From positions 1-37,705 of IMG/VR virus record IMGVR_UViG_3300035188_000437: 37,705 nt of DNA; one strand, given 5' to 3'. Below, one piece after another: positions 12,602 to 36,389 of the stretch. Position numbers and translations under genes: made by a program. This DNA is from a virus. The first letter of the stretch is position 1, and every line of letters begins with the position of its first letter. Below the pieces are notes generated by a model. The model had not been told where the DNA came from and searched no databases. It worked only from the letters and a program-made list of their open reading frames with translations.

Positions 12602-14506
12602 ATGACCGCAGCTACGTTATCCCCGGCCCCCAAGCTTCAATTTTTTGACGCTAACGGAAATCCGTTGGTTGGGGGAAAGCTGTATTCTTACGCGGCTGGC
12701 ACAACCACACCTTTAGCTACTTACACCAGTTCGTCCGCAGGAACGCCTAACAGCAATCCGATTATTCTTGACTCCCGCGGCGAGGCTAATGTTTGGCTAA
12801 CAGGGGTTCTCTATAAACTGCGGTTAGAGACAGCTACCGGCGTCGAGATCTGGACAGTCGATAATGTCGGTAACGACATCCTTGCTCAGTTAGCCGCTTC
12901 TAACGGGTCGTCATTAATCGGGTATATTGCGGCCGGCGTAGGGGCTGAAGCAAGAACTGTTCAGTCTAAGCTTCGTGAATCGCTCAGCGTTAAAGACTTC
13001 GGCGCTGTCGGTGACGGTATTACGGATGATACGGCAGCGATCCAAGAAGCCATAACGGCAGCTATTGCGGCGGGCGCGGATGTTTTTTACCCTGCCGGCA
13101 CGTATAAGCAGGGACCGGTCACTCTTACAGATGCTTCACAGATTTACGTGCGGGGCTTTAACGCCGCCATTAATGCTTATGGAAGTATGGCTGGAAGTAC
13201 CGACGATACCAACAGAAATGCCGTCTTCAAACTCAGCGGAACTTGTTCTAGCGTTACCTTTTTTGGCCTTACCATCAACGGTGACGGTCTTCTGGCAAAT
13301 AGACAGCGCGGCATAGGCTATGACTACTATAGCCCGCCCATTCTTACAGACATAAATATCCTAAGCTGTGACTTTCACAACCTATTGATAGCCGTTATTC
13401 TACCGGGGGTTAACCAGGCGCGGTTTATCGACAATACGGTTAACGGCACTATTGGCTCGGATAGCGGGCAAGGAATCGGATTTGTTACAGAGATTTCTGG
13501 ATCAACAAAACCGCGATCTGTGCTGTTTTCGGGCAATACATTCTATAGAACAACGCGCCACGCCATTTATACGAACTATATTGAGGGTGGCAGCCTTGTT
13601 GGAAATCAGTTTCAAGAACATGCGCCATCATTCACTGGGGCAGCAACGACAGGCCGCGCCGCAATAGCTATCGCCAGATGCTTTGGCATATCAATATCCG
13701 CTAATACCTTTTTAGATTGCCGCGACGCAGCATTAATTGTTGACCAAGACTCGACGACGATTGTTTCTGCCATAACGGTGACAGGAAATACTTTTTATAA
13801 TACTCGTGGCGTTTCACTTAAAGTGGGCCGCACGGGGTCTACCGGGGAGTGCTATTTCGTAAATGTTACTGGCAATACTTTTGTCACCAATGGCGCGTAT
13901 AATTCCGCCGACATAGTTATAACGGACGTAAAACGGCTTAAATTTGCGGAAAACATCATAGACGCCAATCGTGCGTATCCGTTAACCAAGACAATCATAG
14001 ACATCTCTGAATACGATGCCGCGTATTTTGAGGATATAGACATATCCAATAATATCGGGTCTATATCCAGTTCAGGAAGCGCTCATTTTGTAACCATGAG
14101 TGTAGGTATATCTACGTCGCAATATGGCCCATATATGCTGAAAAATAACAGCATAACTGGCGTAACGCGGCTATACTTATACGCACCCGCTGGCGTCTGC
14201 TACAATGATAAAATACGGACTGATTGGGACTATGAATATACTATTTCATCGGCTGGCACGCCCAGCGTGGCGGGGTATAATACCTTCCGCGTATCTTTAG
14301 CCGCGCCGGGAAATATAACTTTCTTTAATAACGGCTATAATCAGCAAGTCATACGGCTGTATTTTGACAATGCCAATGCCACGTTGACAAACGCCATGTA
14401 TCTTGCAGGCGGCGCTAATTTTACCTCATCAACGTCCGACTATATGCAGCTCTTGTATAGATCTGGCGCTACAAACTGGTTTGAGCAATCGCGCAGCGTA
14501 AATTAA
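12602..14506 (+). CDS. Tailspike with pectate-lyase-type beta-helix
   Basis: 634 residues. The N-terminal head-binding domain has the very common podophage pattern LQFFDANGNPLVGGKLYSYA...TTTPLATYTSS, about residues 12-95. A linker and RTVQSKLRESLSVKDFGAVG, DGITDDTAAIQEAI then open a right-handed beta-helix (Pectate_lyase_3 type), with turns such as SVTFFGLTIN, ALIVDQDS, FVNVTGNTF and NNIGSISSSG. Such spikes bind and often cut surface polysaccharide. I cannot identify catalytic residues. AAGGA lies before the ATG. The C-terminal domain (residues about 530-634) is beta-rich and ends in LLYRSGATNWFEQSRSVN. Confidence 0.85.
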   Translation: MTAATLSPAPKLQFFDANGNPLVGGKLYSYAAGTTTPLATYTSSSAGTPNSNPIILDSRGEANVWLTGVLYKLRLETATGVEIWTVDNVGNDILAQLAASNGSSLIGYIAAGVGAEARTVQSKLRESLSVKDFGAVGDGITDDTAAIQEAITAAIAAGADVFYPAGTYKQGPVTLTDASQIYVRGFNAAINAYGSMAGSTDDTNRNAVFKLSGTCSSVTFFGLTINGDGLLANRQRGIGYDYYSPPILTDINILSCDFHNLLIAVILPGVNQARFIDNTVNGTIGSDSGQGIGFVTEISGSTKPRSVLFSGNTFYRTTRHAIYTNYIEGGSLVGNQFQEHAPSFTGAATTGRAAIAIARCFGISISANTFLDCRDAALIVDQDSTTIVSAITVTGNTFYNTRGVSLKVGRTGSTGECYFVNVTGNTFVTNGAYNSADIVITDVKRLKFAENIIDANRAYPLTKTIIDISEYDAAYFEDIDISNNIGSISSSGSAHFVTMSVGISTSQYGPYMLKNNSITGVTRLYLYAPAGVCYNDKIRTDWDYEYTISSAGTPSVAGYNTFRVSLAAPGNITFFNNGYNQQVIRLYFDNANATLTNAMYLAGGANFTSSTSDYMQLLYRSGATNWFEQSRSVN

Positions 14507-25332: not shown

Positions 25333-25515
25333 ATGTCTAAATGGCGAAAAGCTAAGACGACAAAATCATGGGACCGCATCGGTCGCCCAAAATTAGGCGT
25401 CGATAAGAGCGAACTAATCAAGAAAATGAAAGAAATAGCGGAGCGAAAGAATGGCGTATCTGTTCCCGTATGCGGGCTACGACGGCCCGAAACGCAAACC
25501 ACCATCGCAGACTGA
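25333..25515 (+). CDS. 60-residue basic protein, unknown
   Basis: Starts 15 bases after the terminator with GAGGGG before the ATG. MSKWRKAKTTKSWDRIGRPK then LGVDKSELIKKMKEIAERKN is a strongly basic helical stretch; the last 20 residues overlap the next gene in another frame and look unconstrained. No family is recognised. A small DNA- or RNA-binding role would fit the charge, as inference. The good ribosome site and tight spacing to the next gene support it. Confidence 0.55.
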   Translation: MSKWRKAKTTKSWDRIGRPKLGVDKSELIKKMKEIAERKNGVSVPVCGLRRPETQTTIAD

Positions 25516-26137
25516 CGCAGCGCGTAAGCATCGGCTTCGCGTGGCGACGCGGGCGTTGCGTATGCTGGAGTCTGAGCCTGAACTGACCCCACAGCAGCGC
25601 ATGGCGCTAGAAGCAGCGGTCAATGCTGAATACACACCGACTAGCGGGATGCCGACGACATACCGGATGATCTTAGGCGAAGTCGCACGCAAGCATAAGG
25701 TGCCTTACAAATCGATCCTTGGCGTATCTCGACTGGCGCACATAACGCAGGCGCGGCGCGAATTTATATTCCGCTGCATGGAAGAGATCCCGAATGCGTC
25801 ATACGCTGGCGTTGGTCGTTACGTTAAGCGCGATCATACGACGGTGCTTTACGCGCACAAAAAAGGTCTGGCCGACCCGTCGTCGCTGGAGCCTTTGGAG
25901 CGTAAGATCGTCGTATATAATACTAAATCGGATAACGGATTTTCTTTCTTCGAGTCTGAAGTAATCCGGCTAATAAAAGAAGGTCTTAACCATGTGCAGG
26001 TAGCAAACCAGCTAGGCAAGACACCTCACCAAGTCACGTCAGCGCTCTGCGAGATCCGCCGCAAAGCGGTGAAAATGGAATGCACGGACATACCACCGGA
26101 CTTTGGCCGCGTGATGAAAAGGATAAGACATGACTGA
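25451..26137 (+). CDS. DnaA domain IV-like protein with C-terminal HTH
   Basis: 228 residues. Residues 71-140 follow the DnaA C-terminal domain: an opening helix YRMILGEVARKHKVPYKSIL, then ARREFIFRCMEEIP, ASYAGVGRYVKRDHTTVLYA. RDHTTV (128-133) is the DnaA signature that reads the DnaA box. There is no AAA+ ATPase. A second helix-turn-helix occupies about 168-205 (EVIRLIKEGLNHVQVANQLG then KTPHQVTSALCEIRRKA), of the GcrA/sigma-region-4 kind. It may bind the origin or act as a transcription regulator. It overlaps the next gene by eight bases. It is one of two DnaA-IV proteins in this genome. Confidence 0.82.
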   Translation: MAYLFPYAGYDGPKRKPPSQTDAARKHRLRVATRALRMLESEPELTPQQRMALEAAVNAEYTPTSGMPTTYRMILGEVARKHKVPYKSILGVSRLAHITQARREFIFRCMEEIPNASYAGVGRYVKRDHTTVLYAHKKGLADPSSLEPLERKIVVYNTKSDNGFSFFESEVIRLIKEGLNHVQVANQLGKTPHQVTSALCEIRRKAVKMECTDIPPDFGRVMKRIRHD

Positions 26138-27225: not shown

Positions 27226-29108
27226 TCTGGCTAGATTTCGAGACAAGATCAGAATGCGATCTAAAAACAGCGGGAGTGTATAACTATGCACGACATCCAT
27301 CCACGCAAGTTATCTGTATGTCCTACGCCTATGGCGACGATCCCGTTCGGACATGGCGCATGGGCGAGCCTTTCCCAGAGATTAAAGGACAGATACGAGC
27401 CCACAACGCCGCCTTTGAGCGGCTCATCTTCTGGCATGTGCTTGGCGTGCCCATACCACTCGAACAGTTCTACTGCACCGCAGCACAAGCCAGAGCCAAC
27501 TGCGCGCCAGGAAGCCTGGAAGATGTCGGTCGCTTCGCTGGAACTGAAATGCGCAAAGATCATCGCGGCAATGCTTTGGTCCGTGCTTGCTGTATTCCTC
27601 CTTACCGTGACGATCTCATACCTGAGCTTATCGAATACTGCGAACAAGATGTCAGGACCATGCGCGCTGTCAGCAAAGCCATGCGTGATCTCACCGATGA
27701 AGAACTAGAGGACTATCATGCTAACGAGCGCATCAATGATCGTGGCGTTCTTGTCGATCAGCGTCTATGCCGCGCGGCGGTCAAATATGCGGCTGATGAA
27801 CTTCAAGAGATCGAAGCTACGGTTAAGACCGTCACGAACGGTGAGATTCAGACTGTCAGAAGCCCTCGAATGCGAGAATGGGTCTTCGAACGTGTTGGAT
27901 CAGAAGCGCGTAAACTTATGGAACGTGCCGATAAAGTCTCAATCGACAAGTCAGTTCGGGCCAACCTACTGGCCATAGACGATCCAGAGGAGGTGCCTCC
28001 CGATGTCAGAGAAGTCATACAATGCGCCGATGACCTATGGGCGTCTTCTGTTGCTAAGTTTAATCGCCTTGATAACCTTGCTTGTGCTGATGGTCGTGTT
28101 CGAGGCGCTTTTGTCTTTGCCGGCGGATCAGCCACGGGACGCGCTTCCTCGTATGGTGCGCAAGTCCACAACTTCACACGTAAGTGCGCCGATGACCCGG
28201 AAGCCGTGCGACATGCAATGGTTCGGGGTCATGCAATCGTGCCTAATTACGGACGAAGAGTCACGGACGTTTTGCGAGGTATGCTTCGGCCAGCCCTGAT
28301 CCCTGCGCCCGGCAAGCAGTTCGTCGTCGCGGATTGGTCGGCCATCGAAGGCCGCGTTAATCCGTGGTTGTCCGGTCGCGGTGAGGATAAGTTACAAGCG
28401 TTCCGCGATCATCTTGATCCTTACATTGTAAACGCTGCTGCGACGTTTCACGTCAAATATGAACAGGTTGACAAGTCGCAGAGACAAGTCGGTAAAGTTC
28501 AAGAACTTGCGTGCGGATTCGGCGGCGGCGTTGGCGCGTTTGCGGCGATGGGTCGCGCTTATGGCCTGCATTTGCCGGAGCCTGAAGCGAAGCGTATGGT
28601 CGACGCCTGGCGTCAAGCTAACCCGTGGTCAGTGCCGTTCTGGTCTGATCTTGAAGTTGCTTACATTCGTGCGCTGCGCAATCTAGGTAAAATATTTGAG
28701 GCTGGTCGTGTAAAATACTTGGCCGACAAACAGCACCTTTGGTATGCTCTGCCTTCTGGCCGGGTGCTTTGTTACCCGAACGCCCGGTTTGAAGAAGATG
28801 GTTCGATCACCTATTCAAAGGCGTCTTGGAAGCCTGCGGCGGATGCTAAAGAGTGGCCTCGGGGTCGGCTCTGGAGAGGGCTGGCTTGCGAGAACGTCAC
28901 ACAAGCGACCGCCCATGATCTTCTACGTGAGGCTCTGCGCCGTCTGCCTGACGTTGTGTTGCATGTTCACGATGAAATTGTTCTGGAGTCTGATCGGCCC
29001 GAAGAGGCGAAGGCGCTCCTTGAAGAAGTAATGACGACGCCGCCTGCATGGGCGGAAGGTCTGCCGTTAGAAGTAGAAGCCACCATTATGGAAAGATACG
29101 GCAAATGA
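27222..29108 (+). CDS. DNA polymerase, family A with 3'-5' exonuclease
   Basis: 628 residues. The N-terminal proofreading domain starts at once with DFETRS (Asp5, Glu7), a later exonuclease segment RAHNAAFERLIF and a third around residue 145. The polymerase domain has motif A ADWSAIEGRV (Asp371), motif B RQVGKVQELACGFGGG (Arg421, Lys425) and motif C VHDEIVLE (His583, Asp584, Glu585). All key residues are present. It is compact, lacking a 5'-3' exonuclease, as is common in phages. It replicates the phage genome together with the primase-helicase two genes downstream. Stop and next ATG overlap. Confidence 0.94.
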   Translation: MIWLDFETRSECDLKTAGVYNYARHPSTQVICMSYAYGDDPVRTWRMGEPFPEIKGQIRAHNAAFERLIFWHVLGVPIPLEQFYCTAAQARANCAPGSLEDVGRFAGTEMRKDHRGNALVRACCIPPYRDDLIPELIEYCEQDVRTMRAVSKAMRDLTDEELEDYHANERINDRGVLVDQRLCRAAVKYAADELQEIEATVKTVTNGEIQTVRSPRMREWVFERVGSEARKLMERADKVSIDKSVRANLLAIDDPEEVPPDVREVIQCADDLWASSVAKFNRLDNLACADGRVRGAFVFAGGSATGRASSYGAQVHNFTRKCADDPEAVRHAMVRGHAIVPNYGRRVTDVLRGMLRPALIPAPGKQFVVADWSAIEGRVNPWLSGRGEDKLQAFRDHLDPYIVNAAATFHVKYEQVDKSQRQVGKVQELACGFGGGVGAFAAMGRAYGLHLPEPEAKRMVDAWRQANPWSVPFWSDLEVAYIRALRNLGKIFEAGRVKYLADKQHLWYALPSGRVLCYPNARFEEDGSITYSKASWKPAADAKEWPRGRLWRGLACENVTQATAHDLLREALRRLPDVVLHVHDEIVLESDRPEEAKALLEEVMTTPPAWAEGLPLEVEATIMERYGK

Positions 29109-29830
29109 TTGCGGTTTGGTTTTCTTGCGGAGCCGCCAGCGCAGTTGCCGCAAAGCTAACGCTAGAGAGATATTCTGACGTTCGGGTTATTAACAACCCG
29201 GTCGTCGAAGAGGACGAAGACAATGAGCGCTTCTTGCGCGACGTTGAGTCATGGCTTGGCGTCAAGATCGAACGCGCCGTCAATAGCAAATACCCGTCCT
29301 GTTCGGCGCGCGATATATGGCAGAAGCGCGGGTTTATGTCTGGCCCGACTGGGGCCGTCTGCACGGTCGAGCTAAAGAAACGCGCCCGTCAGGAATGGGA
29401 ACGCGACAATAAAGCCGACTGGCATGTGCTGGGTTTTACGGTCGACGAGCGCCATCGGTTTGATCGTTTCGTCCTGTCGGAACGTGACAACGTGCTGCCG
29501 GTGCTGATCGACGCTGGCCTGACAAAACAGGATTGCCTCAACATGATCTTGGCCGCTGGCATTCAGCCGCCGCGCATCTATAGCAAAGGCTTTCCTAACG
29601 CCAACTGTATCGGCTGCGTTAAAGCTACGTCACCGACTTATTGGTCTTTAGTGCGTAAAGAATATCCTGACGTTTACGCTGACCGGGCAGCGCAATCGCG
29701 CAGTCTAGGTGTGCGGTTAGTGCGATATAAGAACAAACGAATGTTTCTCGACGAGTTACCGGAAGGCGCGACAGGCCGACCGTTAAAAAACATGCAGATC
29801 GACTGCGGAATATTTTGCGAGGAAAGATGA
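29105..29830 (+). CDS. PAPS-reductase-like (PP-loop) protein
   Basis: 241 residues from ATG 29105, which overlaps the polymerase stop as ATGA. VWFSCGAASAVAAKL (4-18) is the altered PP-loop found in phage members; the usual SGGKDS is absent. Asp/Glu-rich VVEEDEDNERF near 33-43 follows. Cysteines at 66, 86, 168, 171, 234 and 238 (NANCIGC, IDCGIFCEE) could hold a metal or Fe-S centre. Family members use ATP or PAPS to move sulfur or adenylate; the phage substrate is unknown. Lying between polymerase and primase suggests nucleic-acid modification or nucleotide metabolism over sulfate assimilation, as inference. Confidence 0.8.
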   Translation: MIAVWFSCGAASAVAAKLTLERYSDVRVINNPVVEEDEDNERFLRDVESWLGVKIERAVNSKYPSCSARDIWQKRGFMSGPTGAVCTVELKKRARQEWERDNKADWHVLGFTVDERHRFDRFVLSERDNVLPVLIDAGLTKQDCLNMILAAGIQPPRIYSKGFPNANCIGCVKATSPTYWSLVRKEYPDVYADRAAQSRSLGVRLVRYKNKRMFLDELPEGATGRPLKNMQIDCGIFCEER

Positions 29831-33264: not shown

Positions 33265-33329
33265 TTCAGCCCCAACACCAGCTCGATTAAAACAGCGATT
33301 AAGATTGCCATGGCTTCACCTGTTTTCAT
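33261..33329 (-). CDS. Possible 22-residue membrane micropeptide
   Basis: MKTGEAMAILIAVLIELVLG then LK: nearly the whole peptide is one membrane segment. It starts inside the end of the DnaA-IV gene and ends on the ATGA of the next gene, so it fills the gap exactly as other genes in this operon do. The internal Met7 has AGGTGA upstream and would give 16 residues. Support is only positional and compositional. Confidence 0.35.
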   Translation of the reverse strand: MKTGEAMAILIAVLIELVLGLK

Positions 33330-33561
33330 AGCGTTTGATCCCGTGCATGATGGTCGTGTGGTCGCGCCCGCCTAGCACTTGTCCGATTAGCTGGAGCGGC
33401 GCGTTCAGCTCGTGCCTGGCGCGCCACATAATCTCGAACCGGGGCCAGATGACCCCTTTGCGGCGGTTGTGGCCGGTCAGGGCTTCGGTGGGTATGTTAT
33501 GATTCCGGGCTGTTTCCTCGATCAGCTCCCGAATCTCTTCGATCATCTCTTGCTTTTGCAT
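33316..33561 (-). CDS. Stand-alone DnaA domain IV protein
   Basis: 81 residues, almost entirely the DnaA DNA-binding domain. IRELIEETARNHNIPTEALT, then GHNRRKGVIWPRFEIMWRAR, and LQLIGQVLGGRDHTTIMHGI with GGRDHTTIMHG at 64-74, the DnaA signature. It has no ATPase. Such proteins could bind DnaA boxes in phage or host DNA, to recruit or block host DnaA or to regulate genes. Five DnaA-box-like elements lie 1.3-2.5 kb upstream of this gene. It overlaps the preceding gene by 65 bases. The start is ATG 33561; the ribosome site is weak. Confidence 0.87.
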   Translation of the reverse strand: MQKQEMIEEIRELIEETARNHNIPTEALTGHNRRKGVIWPRFEIMWRARHELNAPLQLIGQVLGGRDHTTIMHGIKRYENR

Positions 33562-33886: not shown

Positions 33887-34435
33887 TTATGCTCCCCATT
33901 GTGCCGCCATCGCTTCCGCGACGCCTCCATAAGTGCGTGAACGTTCTTTCCATCTATCAGGGCCGGGCGGCATACGGTGAACACGCGCCGTGCGCCCCTC
34001 CACTATGTCCGTTGGCGTCAGAGGCGGGAGCCCCCTTAGCCATAGGCACGTAGCTTTCGTCTCGCCGTGGCCGAATTGCCAAGGCTGTATGATCTGGTCG
34101 GGCTTTCTGATTTTGCTGCTAATGATAGAGACGGGATTTTCCAGCGCTATGCGCGGGATCGGCGCGTCGAGCAACAGCCGCACGAAGTCCAGCGCTTCCG
34201 CCTGTTCTTCGCGTTTATCCTTGAACCAGCGCGCGCCGGACACGGCAAGATGCGTGCAAGGCGGGTGCGCTATCATCAAATCCCAGTCGTCGCCCAATAC
34301 GTCGCGCACGTCACCTTGATGGTGCGGGCCTGGCGTTTCAGACGAGAGCAAGTCGCATGACATGGCATAATGACCGCGCCGTGTGAATGCGTCCCGCACT
34401 GTCCCGCTAAACTCGCAAGCGATTAAAACTCGCAT
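33887..34435 (-). CDS. Short C5-type cytosine DNA methyltransferase
   Basis: 182 residues. MRVLIACEFSGTVRDAFTRR is the SAM-binding motif I, ending in an E-x-S-G variant. LMIAHPPCTHLAVSGARW (53-70) holds the PPC loop with Cys60, the expected nucleophile, and ALENPV (97-102) matches the ENV motif. The order fits C5 methyltransferases, but the target recognition domain is nearly absent, as in the short phage class whose activity is little tested. No restriction partner is present, so self-protection against host enzymes is the likely role. Tightly packed in the operon (TGATG with the gene upstream). Confidence 0.8.
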   Translation of the reverse strand: MRVLIACEFSGTVRDAFTRRGHYAMSCDLLSSETPGPHHQGDVRDVLGDDWDLMIAHPPCTHLAVSGARWFKDKREEQAEALDFVRLLLDAPIPRIALENPVSIISSKIRKPDQIIQPWQFGHGETKATCLWLRGLPPLTPTDIVEGRTARVHRMPPGPDRWKERSRTYGGVAEAMAAQWGA

Positions 34436-34530: not shown

Positions 34531-34813
34531 AATCTTCCTTGCAGGCTGCATACACGTCACGGCTGGCGCATAGGATAGCCTCTATCCGTGCGAAGAGCGG
34601 ATCAGTCTGCTCTATGCAGCGGTCGGGCTCTTTAGCCTTGTCAGCGCTTATTGTGAGGTGTTCTAGCTCGATGTCATACGGGCCGGCAGCGTCGCCTGTG
34701 TCGCGGTCGCGCCCTTCCCATTTATAGGTGATGGTCGCAACGCCATAGGCGTATATCGCCATTCCCGGCCACGGCTGGAACTCATCAAGTTCATAGTCGA
34801 TATGGTAGGTCAT
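34517..34813 (-). CDS. 98-residue hypothetical protein
   Basis: MTYHIDYELDEFQPWPGMAI, then YAYGVATITYKWEGRDRDTG and AGPYDIELEHLTISADKAKE: an antiparallel beta sheet with a helical C-terminus (LFARIEAILCASRDVYAACK). Start ATG 34813 is set by GGAG six bases upstream and by the ATGA overlap with the gene before it; a TTG four codons earlier is less likely. Similar beta proteins with a YDIELExLxIxxD pattern occur in phage accessory regions. Function unknown. Confidence 0.65.
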   Translation of the reverse strand: MTYHIDYELDEFQPWPGMAIYAYGVATITYKWEGRDRDTGDAAGPYDIELEHLTISADKAKEPDRCIEQTDPLFARIEAILCASRDVYAACKEDYEEE

Positions 34814-34974
34814 TGGTTGCTCCAAACGTTTGTCCAGTATTCTTCGGCTGCGTTGTCGTAAACGTCGCGCAGGGTTAGCAGCGCGTCGCTTAGATATGTG
34901 GATTTGTTACTTGTGCGCGATAACAAGTCAATAAGCTCTAGTATTGCTTGCGCCTCTAGCTCTAGTTCGATCAT
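34810..34974 (-). CDS. 54-residue helical protein
   Basis: MIELELEAQAILELIDLLSR, then TSNKSTYLSDALLTLRDVYD and ends WTNVWSNQ. Two amphipathic helices. Both ends overlap neighbours as ATGA, the signature of translationally coupled genes. Its coding sequence contains one near copy of the 14-bp DnaA-box-like element (34897-34910). No family is recognised. Confidence 0.65.
   Translation of the reverse strand: MIELELEAQAILELIDLLSRTSNKSTYLSDALLTLRDVYDNAAEEYWTNVWSNQ
34897..34910 (-). repeat. Start-associated element, internal near copy
   Basis: Plus-strand TGTGGATTTGTTAC, one mismatch from copy 2, but inside the 54-residue gene and not before a start. It shows the element is not strictly tied to ribosome sites. 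Confidence 0.5.
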
Positions 34975-35423
34975 AGCGTAGCCCTCAAGAATTGACGCGC
35001 GATCATCTCCGCGTTGTCCAGCGACGCGATGGACGCGGCGAGCGACAATGACAGGCCGAACTTGGCAAGGAAGGCCGCCAGCTCGTCTTGCGGCACTTTG
35101 GCGATAATAGCGGCGGCTTGTTCTAGTTTAGCCTTCGGGACGCGCTTGCGCGGTATTGCGACGACTGGCGCCGGCTTGTTATGTGCCGGCCACCGATAAA
35201 CGCCATCGGTTTTTGTTGCTTCAGCCAAAATCACGGGCTTTAGCTTTTCATTGTAAATGCCGAATCGCGCCTCATAGGCTTTTTGTTCTTTTGATTTGTA
35301 ATTGCGAGCGCTCCCGCCGCGCACGCGAATGTTCGCGCCTTCTTGCGTGAACACGTTGCCGTGACCGATGTTAAGCATCGGGCCTTCCCATTTGCTTTCG
35401 CACCATGCTTTTAAGTTTGTCAT
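34971..35423 (-). CDS. 150-residue hypothetical protein
   Basis: Begins MTNLKAWCESKWEGPMLNIG and HGNVFTQEGANIRVRGGSAR; the middle (KSKEQKAYEARFGIYNEKLK, PVILAEATKTDGVYRWPAHN) is mixed; the C-terminus is Ala/Leu-rich helix. No named domain is seen. The ATG is preceded by AAGGA, which itself follows copy 1 of the start-associated element within one base. First gene of the lower, unbroken part of the leftward operon. Confidence 0.65.
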   Translation of the reverse strand: MTNLKAWCESKWEGPMLNIGHGNVFTQEGANIRVRGGSARNYKSKEQKAYEARFGIYNEKLKPVILAEATKTDGVYRWPAHNKPAPVVAIPRKRVPKAKLEQAAAIIAKVPQDELAAFLAKFGLSLSLAASIASLDNAEMIARQFLRATL

Positions 35424-35435
35424 GTCGTTATTCCT

Positions 35436-35449
35436 TGTGGATACGTTAC
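35436..35449 (-). repeat. Start-associated element, copy 1
   Basis: Plus-strand TGTGGATACGTTAC; read leftward, GTAACGTATCCACA, followed at once by the AAGGA site of the 150-residue gene. It differs at one position from copy 2. Its inner TATCCACA matches the last eight bases of the DnaA box TTATCCACA. Confidence 0.65.
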
Positions 35450-35477
35450 AAAATAGGCGACGCCGTGAAGCGCCGCC
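35449..35477 (-). terminator. Weak leftward terminator or attenuator
   Basis: Read leftward, GGCGGCG and CGTCGCC pair (one G-T) around an eight-base loop and are followed by TATTTTG. It lies between the 89-residue and 150-residue genes, directly before copy 1 of the start-associated element. The T-tract is short, so termination is probably partial, with the element restarting or controlling transcription. Confidence 0.5.
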
Positions 35478-35482
35478 TGTGA

Positions 35483-35752
35483 TTATGCTGCTTCTTCGTT
35501 CTGGCCGATAAGCATGTCGGCAATCTCGCGATAATTCACCCCATCAAGAAACGCCAGCGCATAGTCACGCGCCAATCCTTCCGGCGCGGTTTGTTCTATG
35601 ATCTCTTCGGCATAGTCGCGCAGGACAGACGCAAGTTCCCATCTGTCCATCCCGCGCCATCCCATATCGTCAACATCCATGCCGTCGAATATCTCCAGAT
35701 TGACCCGCCACGTCGCGTAGTTTGTCCAGCCGTTATAGGTATTGTCAGTCAT
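35483..35752 (-). CDS. DUF7249-like small protein
   Basis: 89 residues. YNGWTNYATWRVNLEIFDG at the start is the signature of a widespread small phage and plasmid family (NxWxNYxTWxVxLxxxN), which I recall as DUF7249. Helices follow: ELASVLRDYAEEIIEQTAPE, ARDYALAFLDGVNYREIADM. No function is established that I know of; members often sit in anti-defence or accessory regions. AAGGAG precedes the ATG, with copy 2 of the start-associated element just upstream. Confidence 0.75.
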   Translation of the reverse strand: MTDNTYNGWTNYATWRVNLEIFDGMDVDDMGWRGMDRWELASVLRDYAEEIIEQTAPEGLARDYALAFLDGVNYREIADMLIGQNEEAA

Positions 35753-35770
35753 CGTCGTCTCCTTTTGTTG

Positions 35771-35784
35771 TGTGGATATGTTAC
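35771..35784 (-). repeat. Start-associated element, copy 2
   Basis: Plus-strand TGTGGATATGTTAC; read leftward, GTAACATATCCACA. It lies ten bases before the ribosome site of the DUF7249-like gene and contains the TAA stop of the gene upstream. TTGTAA lies 17 bases before its TAACAT, so it could also serve as the -10 part of a promoter. Confidence 0.65.
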
Positions 35785-35927
35785 AGATACACGCGGTTTT
35801 TTACAATACGGCTACCGGGAAAATATGCTCTGATCTCCTTCCGATAGAACGAGAACTGCCCGATCTCGTCGCCTGTGCTGGCGTAGATGTACCAGATCTT
35901 TACCTTAGAGTTCTTACGCGTCTTCAT
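35781..35927 (-). CDS. 48-residue basic protein, first of leftward operon
   Basis: MKTRKNSKVKIWYIYASTGD, then EIGQFSFYRKEIRAYFPGSR and IVKNRVYL. Basic, with a beta-strand look. AAGGAGG seven bases before ATG 35927 is the best ribosome site in the operon, and copy 3 of the start-associated element ends two bases before it. Being first after the intergenic region, it is probably made early. No family is recognised. Confidence 0.65.
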   Translation of the reverse strand: MKTRKNSKVKIWYIYASTGDEIGQFSFYRKEIRAYFPGSRIVKNRVYL

Positions 35928-35941
35928 GTCATGTCCTCCTT

Positions 35942-35955
35942 TGTGGATATGTTAT
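35942..35955 (-). repeat. Start-associated element, copy 3
   Basis: Plus-strand TGTGGATATGTTAT; read leftward, ATAACATATCCACA, then AAAGGAGG. One difference from copy 2. It marks the left edge of the non-coding region. Confidence 0.65.
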
Positions 35956-36136
35956 CCTCTCACGTTTTTTGAGGGTCGTAAAGAGTTTTATTATGTTTTG
36001 CCCCATTTTGGGCGATTAATTGTGGATATAGTCGCGGATAGTTGTGAGATCGTCGTCGGCAATGCCCGCTCAACCCCAGGCGCGGCCTGCATATCGTCAT
36101 ATCGTCATGGGTGTAAGTACTGTGAGTTTTAGAATA

Positions 36137-36389
36137 AATGTAAACATAATAATATAGCGGTGGCAAAAAGATTTGAGCGACCGAAATCGTCATGGCGATT
36201 CGACGATCCGACGTTTTTTATCCCGCGCCGTCCAGGCGCAAACATTCTGCATGAACCTGCGTCGTCATGACGATCCGACGTTTTGCTGGCGCTTGTCGCG
36301 ACCTTCCAACTGCATGACGATCCGACGTTTGATTGTCAACTTAACGTAATGCTTTAAGTTTACATTCATGATGCTATAGGATTGTAAAC
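36137..36389. repeat. Inverted 9-mers flanking the direct repeats
   Basis: AATGTAAAC (36137-36145) and GTTTACATT (36358-36366) are exact reverse complements; ATTGTAAAC (36381-36389) is a one-mismatch third copy. They bracket the direct-repeat cluster. Possible protein sites, or chance in AT-rich DNA. Confidence 0.45.
36202..36330 (+). repeat. Three direct repeats, CGATCCGACGTTT core
   Basis: Core copies start at 36204, 36271 and 36318 (spacings 67 and 47). Copies 2 and 3 share the full ATGACGATCCGACGTTT (36267-36283 and 36314-36330). The ATGACGAT half also occurs inverted as ATCGTCAT at 36094, 36102 and 36187. The layout resembles iterons or operator arrays. Confidence 0.75.

Follow-up and report, generated by a model that had tools for sequence, protein, structure and literature searches.

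Why do successive genes of one phage operon carry the same short, DnaA-box-like sequence ahead of their ribosome sites, and which protein would read it? DnaA is known for initiating replication and doubles as a transcription factor. The window analysed here, a 37.7-kb contig that makes up the entire record, belongs to a P22-like short-tailed phage with terminase, portal, coat and tailspike-like genes as well as a family-A DNA polymerase, a primase and a helicase. The leftward operon in question spans 35927 to about 33064 and contains small unknown genes, a methyltransferase-like gene and a gene for a DnaA domain IV (DnaA-IV) protein (Table 1). Elsewhere in the contig, a phosphoadenosine phosphosulfate reductase-like gene (29048-29830, +; phrog_424) lies between the genes for DNA polymerase and primase.

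Table 1 Element copies, predicted promoter parts and genes in the window, with the sites of three relatives in the last row; the strand is given in brackets.
Feature	Position (strand)	Remarks
Element copy 1, ATAACATATCCACA	35942..35955 (-)	Operon head; directly 5' of AAGGAGG of orf 35781-35927
Element copy 2, GTAACATATCCACA	35771..35784 (-)	Precedes AAAGGAG of orf 35483-35752; overlaps TAA stop of orf 35781-35927
Element copy 3, GTAACGTATCCACA	35436..35449 (-)	Directly 5' of AGGA of orf 34971-35423
Extra TATCCACA box (CTATATCCACA)	36021..36028 (-)	~79 bp upstream of the box of copy 1, upstream of first gene
-35-like TTTACG	35977..35982 (-)	Inferred; 22 nt before TAACAT of copy 1; TTGAC(A/G) here in relatives
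-35-like TTGTAA	35801..35806 (-)	Inferred; 17 nt before TAACAT of copy 2
Terminator-like hairpin AGGCGGCGCTTCACGGCGTCGCCT	35455..35478 (-)	Tail ATTTT runs into copy 3; recurs before internal copies of relatives
-35-like TTCACG in hairpin loop	35464..35469 (-)	Inferred, weak; 15 nt before TAACGT of copy 3
48-aa orf, first gene of operon	35781..35927 (-)	No family match
89-aa orf, DUF7249-like N-terminus	35483..35752 (-)	PF23907, under its cut-off
150-aa orf, no assigned function	34971..35423 (-)	
DNA methyltransferase-like gene	33887-34435	Leftward operon
81-aa stand-alone DnaA domain IV	33316..33561 (-)	Proposed element reader; PF08299 E 6e-16; 1j1v E 2e-6
228-aa protein with central DnaA-IV domain	25451..26137 (+)	Replication module; alternative reader; PF08299 E 4.5e-11
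T(T/C)GCAATCG sites in relatives	L221 13219, 16335; L224 15193, 17443; L247 16338, 18585 (all -)	

The repeated element in the window

Three 14-mers with the consensus (G/A)TAAC(A/G)TATCCACA lie ahead of the ribosome sites of successive leftward genes. A first-pass annotation of this DNA had reported them; its coordinates proved exact, and the placement before ribosome sites was borne out, with a gap of 0-1 nt for copy 1, 7 nt for copy 2 and 0 nt for copy 3. Its count of eight matching bases out of nine also holds against the DnaA box TTATCCACA. Position 1 of the box, A or G in the element, deviates from the consensus, and the full nine-base DnaA consensus TTWTNCACA occurs nowhere in the 37.7-kb window.

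The core TATCCACA occurs four times in the window, always on one strand and always inside the same 600 bp. Markov-shuffled windows contain a mean of 0.6 copies, and none of the 400 generated has even three on one strand inside 600 bp. The fourth occurrence, annotated earlier as a partial copy near 36021, is real and is retained in the nearest relatives. No copy of the element was found in the window outside the operon region.

Several look-alikes were set aside. The near copy GTAACAAATCCACA, which the first-pass annotation had placed at 34910-34897, exists, but it lies inside orf 34810-34974, where it codes for SNKST with no start downstream, and was dropped from the set. The widespread variant GTAACATATCTACTGGGGGG was dropped as coding sequence (...LFVTYLLGGL* of a small membrane peptide). 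Two further sequences, also coding, were not counted: the polymerase gene contains GTAACTTATCCTCA at 28382, and the DnaA-IV gene contains ATAACAT(A/C)(C/T)CCACC, where it specifies a conserved HNxxT.

The AT-rich intergenic region between the divergent operons also contains three 12-bp direct repeats GACGATCCGACG (+), at 36202-36213, 36269-36280 and 36316-36327. The longer form of these repeats approximates TGACGATCCGACGTTT, and GACGATCCG-type repeats are also present upstream of the operon heads of relatives. The GACGATCCGACG repeats are candidate iterons or sites of another regulator. Together with the box at 36021, they would suit a phage replication origin in this gap, with the boxes forming part of it and DnaA-IV aiding initiation. 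We regard such a role as extremely improbable, since most boxes lie inside the operon ahead of successive genes, are tied to ribosome sites and promoters, and do not form an array at one place.

Conservation across relatives

With the DnaA-IV protein and the polymerase as queries, IMG/VR yielded more than 100 loci; these related contigs are not independent of each other, and the E-values and scans rest on fragmentary collections. The element recurs in more than 40 related contigs, on the same strand and ahead of non-homologous genes. Conservation before starts, as the first-pass annotation had anticipated, is thus what the relatives display, and random scatter was not found. In clade A, defined by a close DnaA-IV protein, nearly all loci covering the operon head contain between one and five intact elements. 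These invariably share the strand of the operon and precede a ribosome site, but the genes downstream are of many kinds. Copy 1 is kept in L127-L160. A de novo motif search of 151 clade-A upstream regions recovered the element as TAACaTATCcAC (LLR 193 vs 42 for shuffled sequences); in other clades, the search gave weak, composition-like motifs only. The end of the element is 7-38 nt from the start codon, mostly 12-23 nt, and the Shine-Dalgarno sequence lies downstream of the element. All 33 contigs examined that have at least two copies before ribosome sites are relatives, and each of the 57 unrelated contigs with the element has a single chance match. Distant DnaA-IV loci (L161-L198), most of them probably from unrelated phages, gave almost no element matches and none before a start, and were excluded.

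Clade B (L227, L229, L230, L237 and L243, with one copy in L240) has GTAACAAATC(C/A)ACA at the same position. Here ATC(C/A)ACA is retained and TAACAT is lost, while GTAAC is conserved in clades A and B. Genomes without detectable DnaA-IV (L248-L276) show no comparable element, and neither do seven genomes of the E branch, whose DnaA-IV has THPA or THAA instead of DHTT; each of these two groups is one branch of the polymerase tree. The co-occurrence of element and DnaA-IV appears to give consistent support for a pairing of the two, drawn from few independent evolutionary events. One exception is L240, with one element but a DnaA-IV similar to the proteins of D genomes, which lack the element. 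The DnaA-IV proteins of clades B and C are 61-78% alike, but their sites differ. Given this closeness and the L240 exception, we do not claim from the polymerase tree that operators were swapped together with DnaA-IV.

In the THPA/THAA relatives, T(T/C)GCAATCG is found near the operon-head promoter and just 5' of the DnaA-IV start. Clade E may have a changed operator, TTCGCAATCG, but its copies, at promoters and ahead of the DnaA-IV gene, are too few for a claim.

Predicted promoter context of the element

The first-pass annotation had likened the repeat to start-associated sequences. Its surroundings in relatives point to a unit other than a start-codon signal. Copies at operon heads are paired with a second TATCCACA 26-27 bp upstream, just 3' of a TTGAC-like -35, and many internal copies lie just downstream of a terminator hairpin and share bases with a -10-like hexamer, TAACAT. 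The presence of a -35 at 21-24 nt in 11/11 heads is partly circular, because the heads were selected by a similar pattern, and we used a selection-free scan instead. All viral contigs in IMG/VR were scanned for TATCCACA-N12-22-TAACRTATCCACA, with neither the -35 nor the exact spacing imposed. Of the 49 stretches found, 45 come from relatives, and all 45 have a spacing of 26 or 27 bp with TTG(A/C) immediately upstream of the first box; the remaining 4 are unrelated box-rich arrays with other spacing.

Heads without a spacer box (L141, L143 and L215) have the form TTGACG-16/17-TAA(C/G)TTATCCACA; here the box matches the DnaA consensus in full, and TAACTT or TAAGTT stands at -10 spacing. In L231 and MW202483.1, more distant relatives in which the order of genes is shared, the promoters of the homologous operon have the form TTGACA-17-(T/C)ATAA(C/G) or TTGACA-17-TACAAC, with TTATGCACA, TTATACACA or TTTTACACA in spacer and -10. 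Consensus DnaA boxes are present in all of these relatives. In L231, two consecutive promoters (13599-13640 and 13846-13890, -) have DnaA boxes arranged head to head, TTATGCACA against TGTGTATAA, over spacer and -10.

A GC-rich hairpin with a T-rich tail directly precedes 12/26 element starts, compared with 14/89 other starts. Among hairpin-preceded copies, a -35-like hexamer is found at 15-18 nt in 6/13 and at 9-12 or 21-24 nt in 0/13. Sigma-70 hexamers 16-18 nt apart are clear in C-type relatives and in L143 and L215, and partial at internal copies. In the window itself, one element-preceding hairpin is called as a terminator, and the head has no spacer box and matches -35 and -10 only weakly. 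A simple consensus promoter scan of the window listed none of the three element sites and was uninformative. Where other heads have their spacer box, the window has a CCTCAAAAAACGTGAGAGG inverted repeat (~35956-35976, -), which is a perfect CTCTCA..TGAGAG in L127 and is possibly the site of another regulator.

Because head boxes are paired beside a -35, internal copies follow terminators and relatives have promoters with consensus boxes, we interpret the unit as a predicted promoter with an embedded DnaA-type box. The spacing of the -35-like hexamers at hairpin-preceded copies would also be explained if the element were mainly a set of phage promoter hexamers (TAACAT and an initiator), with a coincidental likeness to the DnaA box and no box-binding protein. 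This is very improbable in our judgement: TATCCACA stands in head spacers without TAAC and at a fixed distance, the box-like half outlives TAACAT in clade B, and C-type promoters carry consensus DnaA boxes. The conserved GTAAC is only partly accounted for as -10 sequence, and a DnaA box alone is insufficient to explain it.

Candidate readers of the box

The first-pass annotation had named two DnaA-IV proteins and placed a DnaA-domain protein in the operon. The 81-aa DnaA-IV is indeed encoded there; the second protein, of 228 aa, is encoded elsewhere. The 81-aa protein scores 58.6 bits against PF08299, above the curated cut-off of 31.5. Its structural model has a pLDDT of 93.7, and the best structural matches are DnaA, including 1j1v and 3pvp bound to box DNA. 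In the alignment to 1j1v, its residues R33, D67, H68 and T69 correspond to the box-reading residues R399, D433, H434 and T435, whose contacts with DNA in that structure are established; E. coli domain IV positions 399 and 433-436 are R and DHTT in the phage protein. The DnaA-IV proteins of clade A retain R399, H434 and T436, and nearly all retain D433 and T435 as well (E. coli numbering). The 81-aa protein consists of domain IV only, with no AAA+ ATPase domain, and is not a full-length DnaA initiator. It is the putative reader of the element boxes. The 228-aa protein is a weaker candidate, because it lies outside the operon and is found only in the closest clade, with strong matches restricted to clade-A relatives. 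Its C-terminal part has a weak likeness to sigma region 4 (3mzy, E 0.006). We found no description of phage DnaA-IV regulators in the open-access papers searched, which is not proof of absence.

The boxes could instead be read by the DnaA of the host, tying early phage transcription to the level of the host initiator, while the phage DnaA-IV competes or acts elsewhere. The sequence xTATCCACA agrees with the chromosomal DnaA consensus box at 8/9 positions, C-type relatives have perfect consensus boxes, and bacterial DnaA represses box-containing promoters (PMC5835720). We nonetheless consider a host reader unlikely: the sites are absent from close relatives that lack phage DnaA-IV or have altered reading residues, the window contains no consensus box, and a host-read site would be expected to retain T at position 1. 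The phage protein, rather than host DnaA, would be the probable reader of the boxes. When DnaA-IV was used to look for a host among species genomes, the only matches were to what seems to be chromosomal DnaA.

Proposed mechanism

Taken as a whole, the comparisons incline us, somewhat beyond an even balance, to read the element as an operator inside a predicted promoter and as part of an autoregulatory DnaA-IV circuit, most likely acting by repression. The right half of the element, xTATCCACA, would be the DnaA-type box, and the left half, (G/A)TAAC(A/G)T, would overlap or abut the -10 of a sigma-70-like promoter whose short-leader mRNA would begin at the ribosome site or a little ahead of it. 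Within the leftward operon, gene cassettes would each tend to carry their own promoter, box and ribosome site, in some cases preceded by a terminator. Repressor sites are classically located between -35 and -10 and over -10/+1. Stand-alone DnaA-IV from the leftward operon would bind the boxes at these positions and exclude RNA polymerase, and rising levels of the protein would switch the operon off. The simplest model is negative autoregulation, because DnaA-IV is made from the leftward operon and the boxes occupy repressor positions. We infer promoter activity, binding by the phage protein and repression at the element; of these steps, we are least sure of the sign of regulation.

The putative circuit resembles the autoregulation of bacterial dnaA (and mioC), in which domain IV reads a 9-bp box at the promoters of its own unit and the bound protein represses; E. 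coli DnaA represses its own promoters in this way via DnaA boxes (PMC5835720). In contrast, the phage protein is domain IV alone, with neither AAA+ domain nor domain I, and the phage box merges into the -10 region and is present on several promoters of one operon.

Our data suggest that the phage has converted a domain of a replication initiator into a switch that regulates itself. A phage operon here appears to be run by nothing more than the DNA-reading domain of DnaA, and numerous natural versions of both the protein and its site occur next to one another, a small system in which the evolution of domain IV specificity can be tested. Short phage proteins whose sole annotation is 'DnaA helix-turn-helix' also gain a likely function from this reading. 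For the phage lineage as a whole, we give about even chances to a scheme in which stand-alone DnaA-IV would serve as a dedicated transcription regulator, promoter-terminator-operator cassettes would move with single genes, and operators would be branch-specific.

Comparison with known phage systems

The likeness to mycobacteriophage start-associated sequences (SAS) that the first-pass annotation had drawn extends to the layout. The SAS and ESAS of cluster K are short, asymmetric repeats that stand in one orientation before the starts of many unrelated non-structural genes, sometimes with an inverted repeat ahead of the repeat (PMC3203893, PMC12699233). The definition of SAS does not cover the element, however: SAS is a GGGATAGGAGCCC-type repeat that contains the Shine-Dalgarno sequence and lies 3-7 bp before the start (PMC3203893, PMC12699233), whereas the element differs in sequence and precedes the Shine-Dalgarno sequence; it also goes together with promoter hexamers, and there is a candidate protein to read it. 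The function of start-associated repeats in mycobacteriophages has so far been described only as proposed, and for repeats of this kind the present locus offers a possible reader as well as an explanation at the level of promoters.

The stoperators of cluster A mycobacteriophages, as described in PMC9283540, are asymmetric intergenic sites, possibly with a small helix-turn-helix reader; they are distributed across the genome and serve the immunity repressor. The element shares their single orientation, intergenic position and asymmetry, but has few copies in one operon instead of a genome-wide spread with an immunity repressor, and the phage shows no sign of lysogeny. The element is not a mycobacteriophage SAS, and it is not proven to be a stoperator.

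A stoperator-like road-block, in which DnaA-IV at intergenic boxes would stop elongating polymerase instead of or besides blocking initiation, would fit copies that are all asymmetric, have one orientation relative to transcription and lie in short intergenic gaps, many of them after terminator hairpins. At E. coli asnC, DnaA at a box reportedly blocks transcription in an orientation-dependent manner, which would provide a precedent. We judge this quite unlikely for the phage, in which there are only 2-6 copies in one operon and the head pairs in the -35/-10 spacers fit control of initiation; no prophage was found among the species genomes searched, and no integrase among about 30 proteins scanned.

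Podoviridae sp. ctNMl277 (MW202483.1) resembles the phage described here in its P22-like structural genes, polymerase, primase and divergent operon, which follow an identical order, and its divergent operon likewise contains a methyltransferase and a 'dnaa protein helix-turn-helix'. In contrast, its polymerase is 63% identical, and in its promoters consensus DnaA boxes take the place of the 14-bp element.
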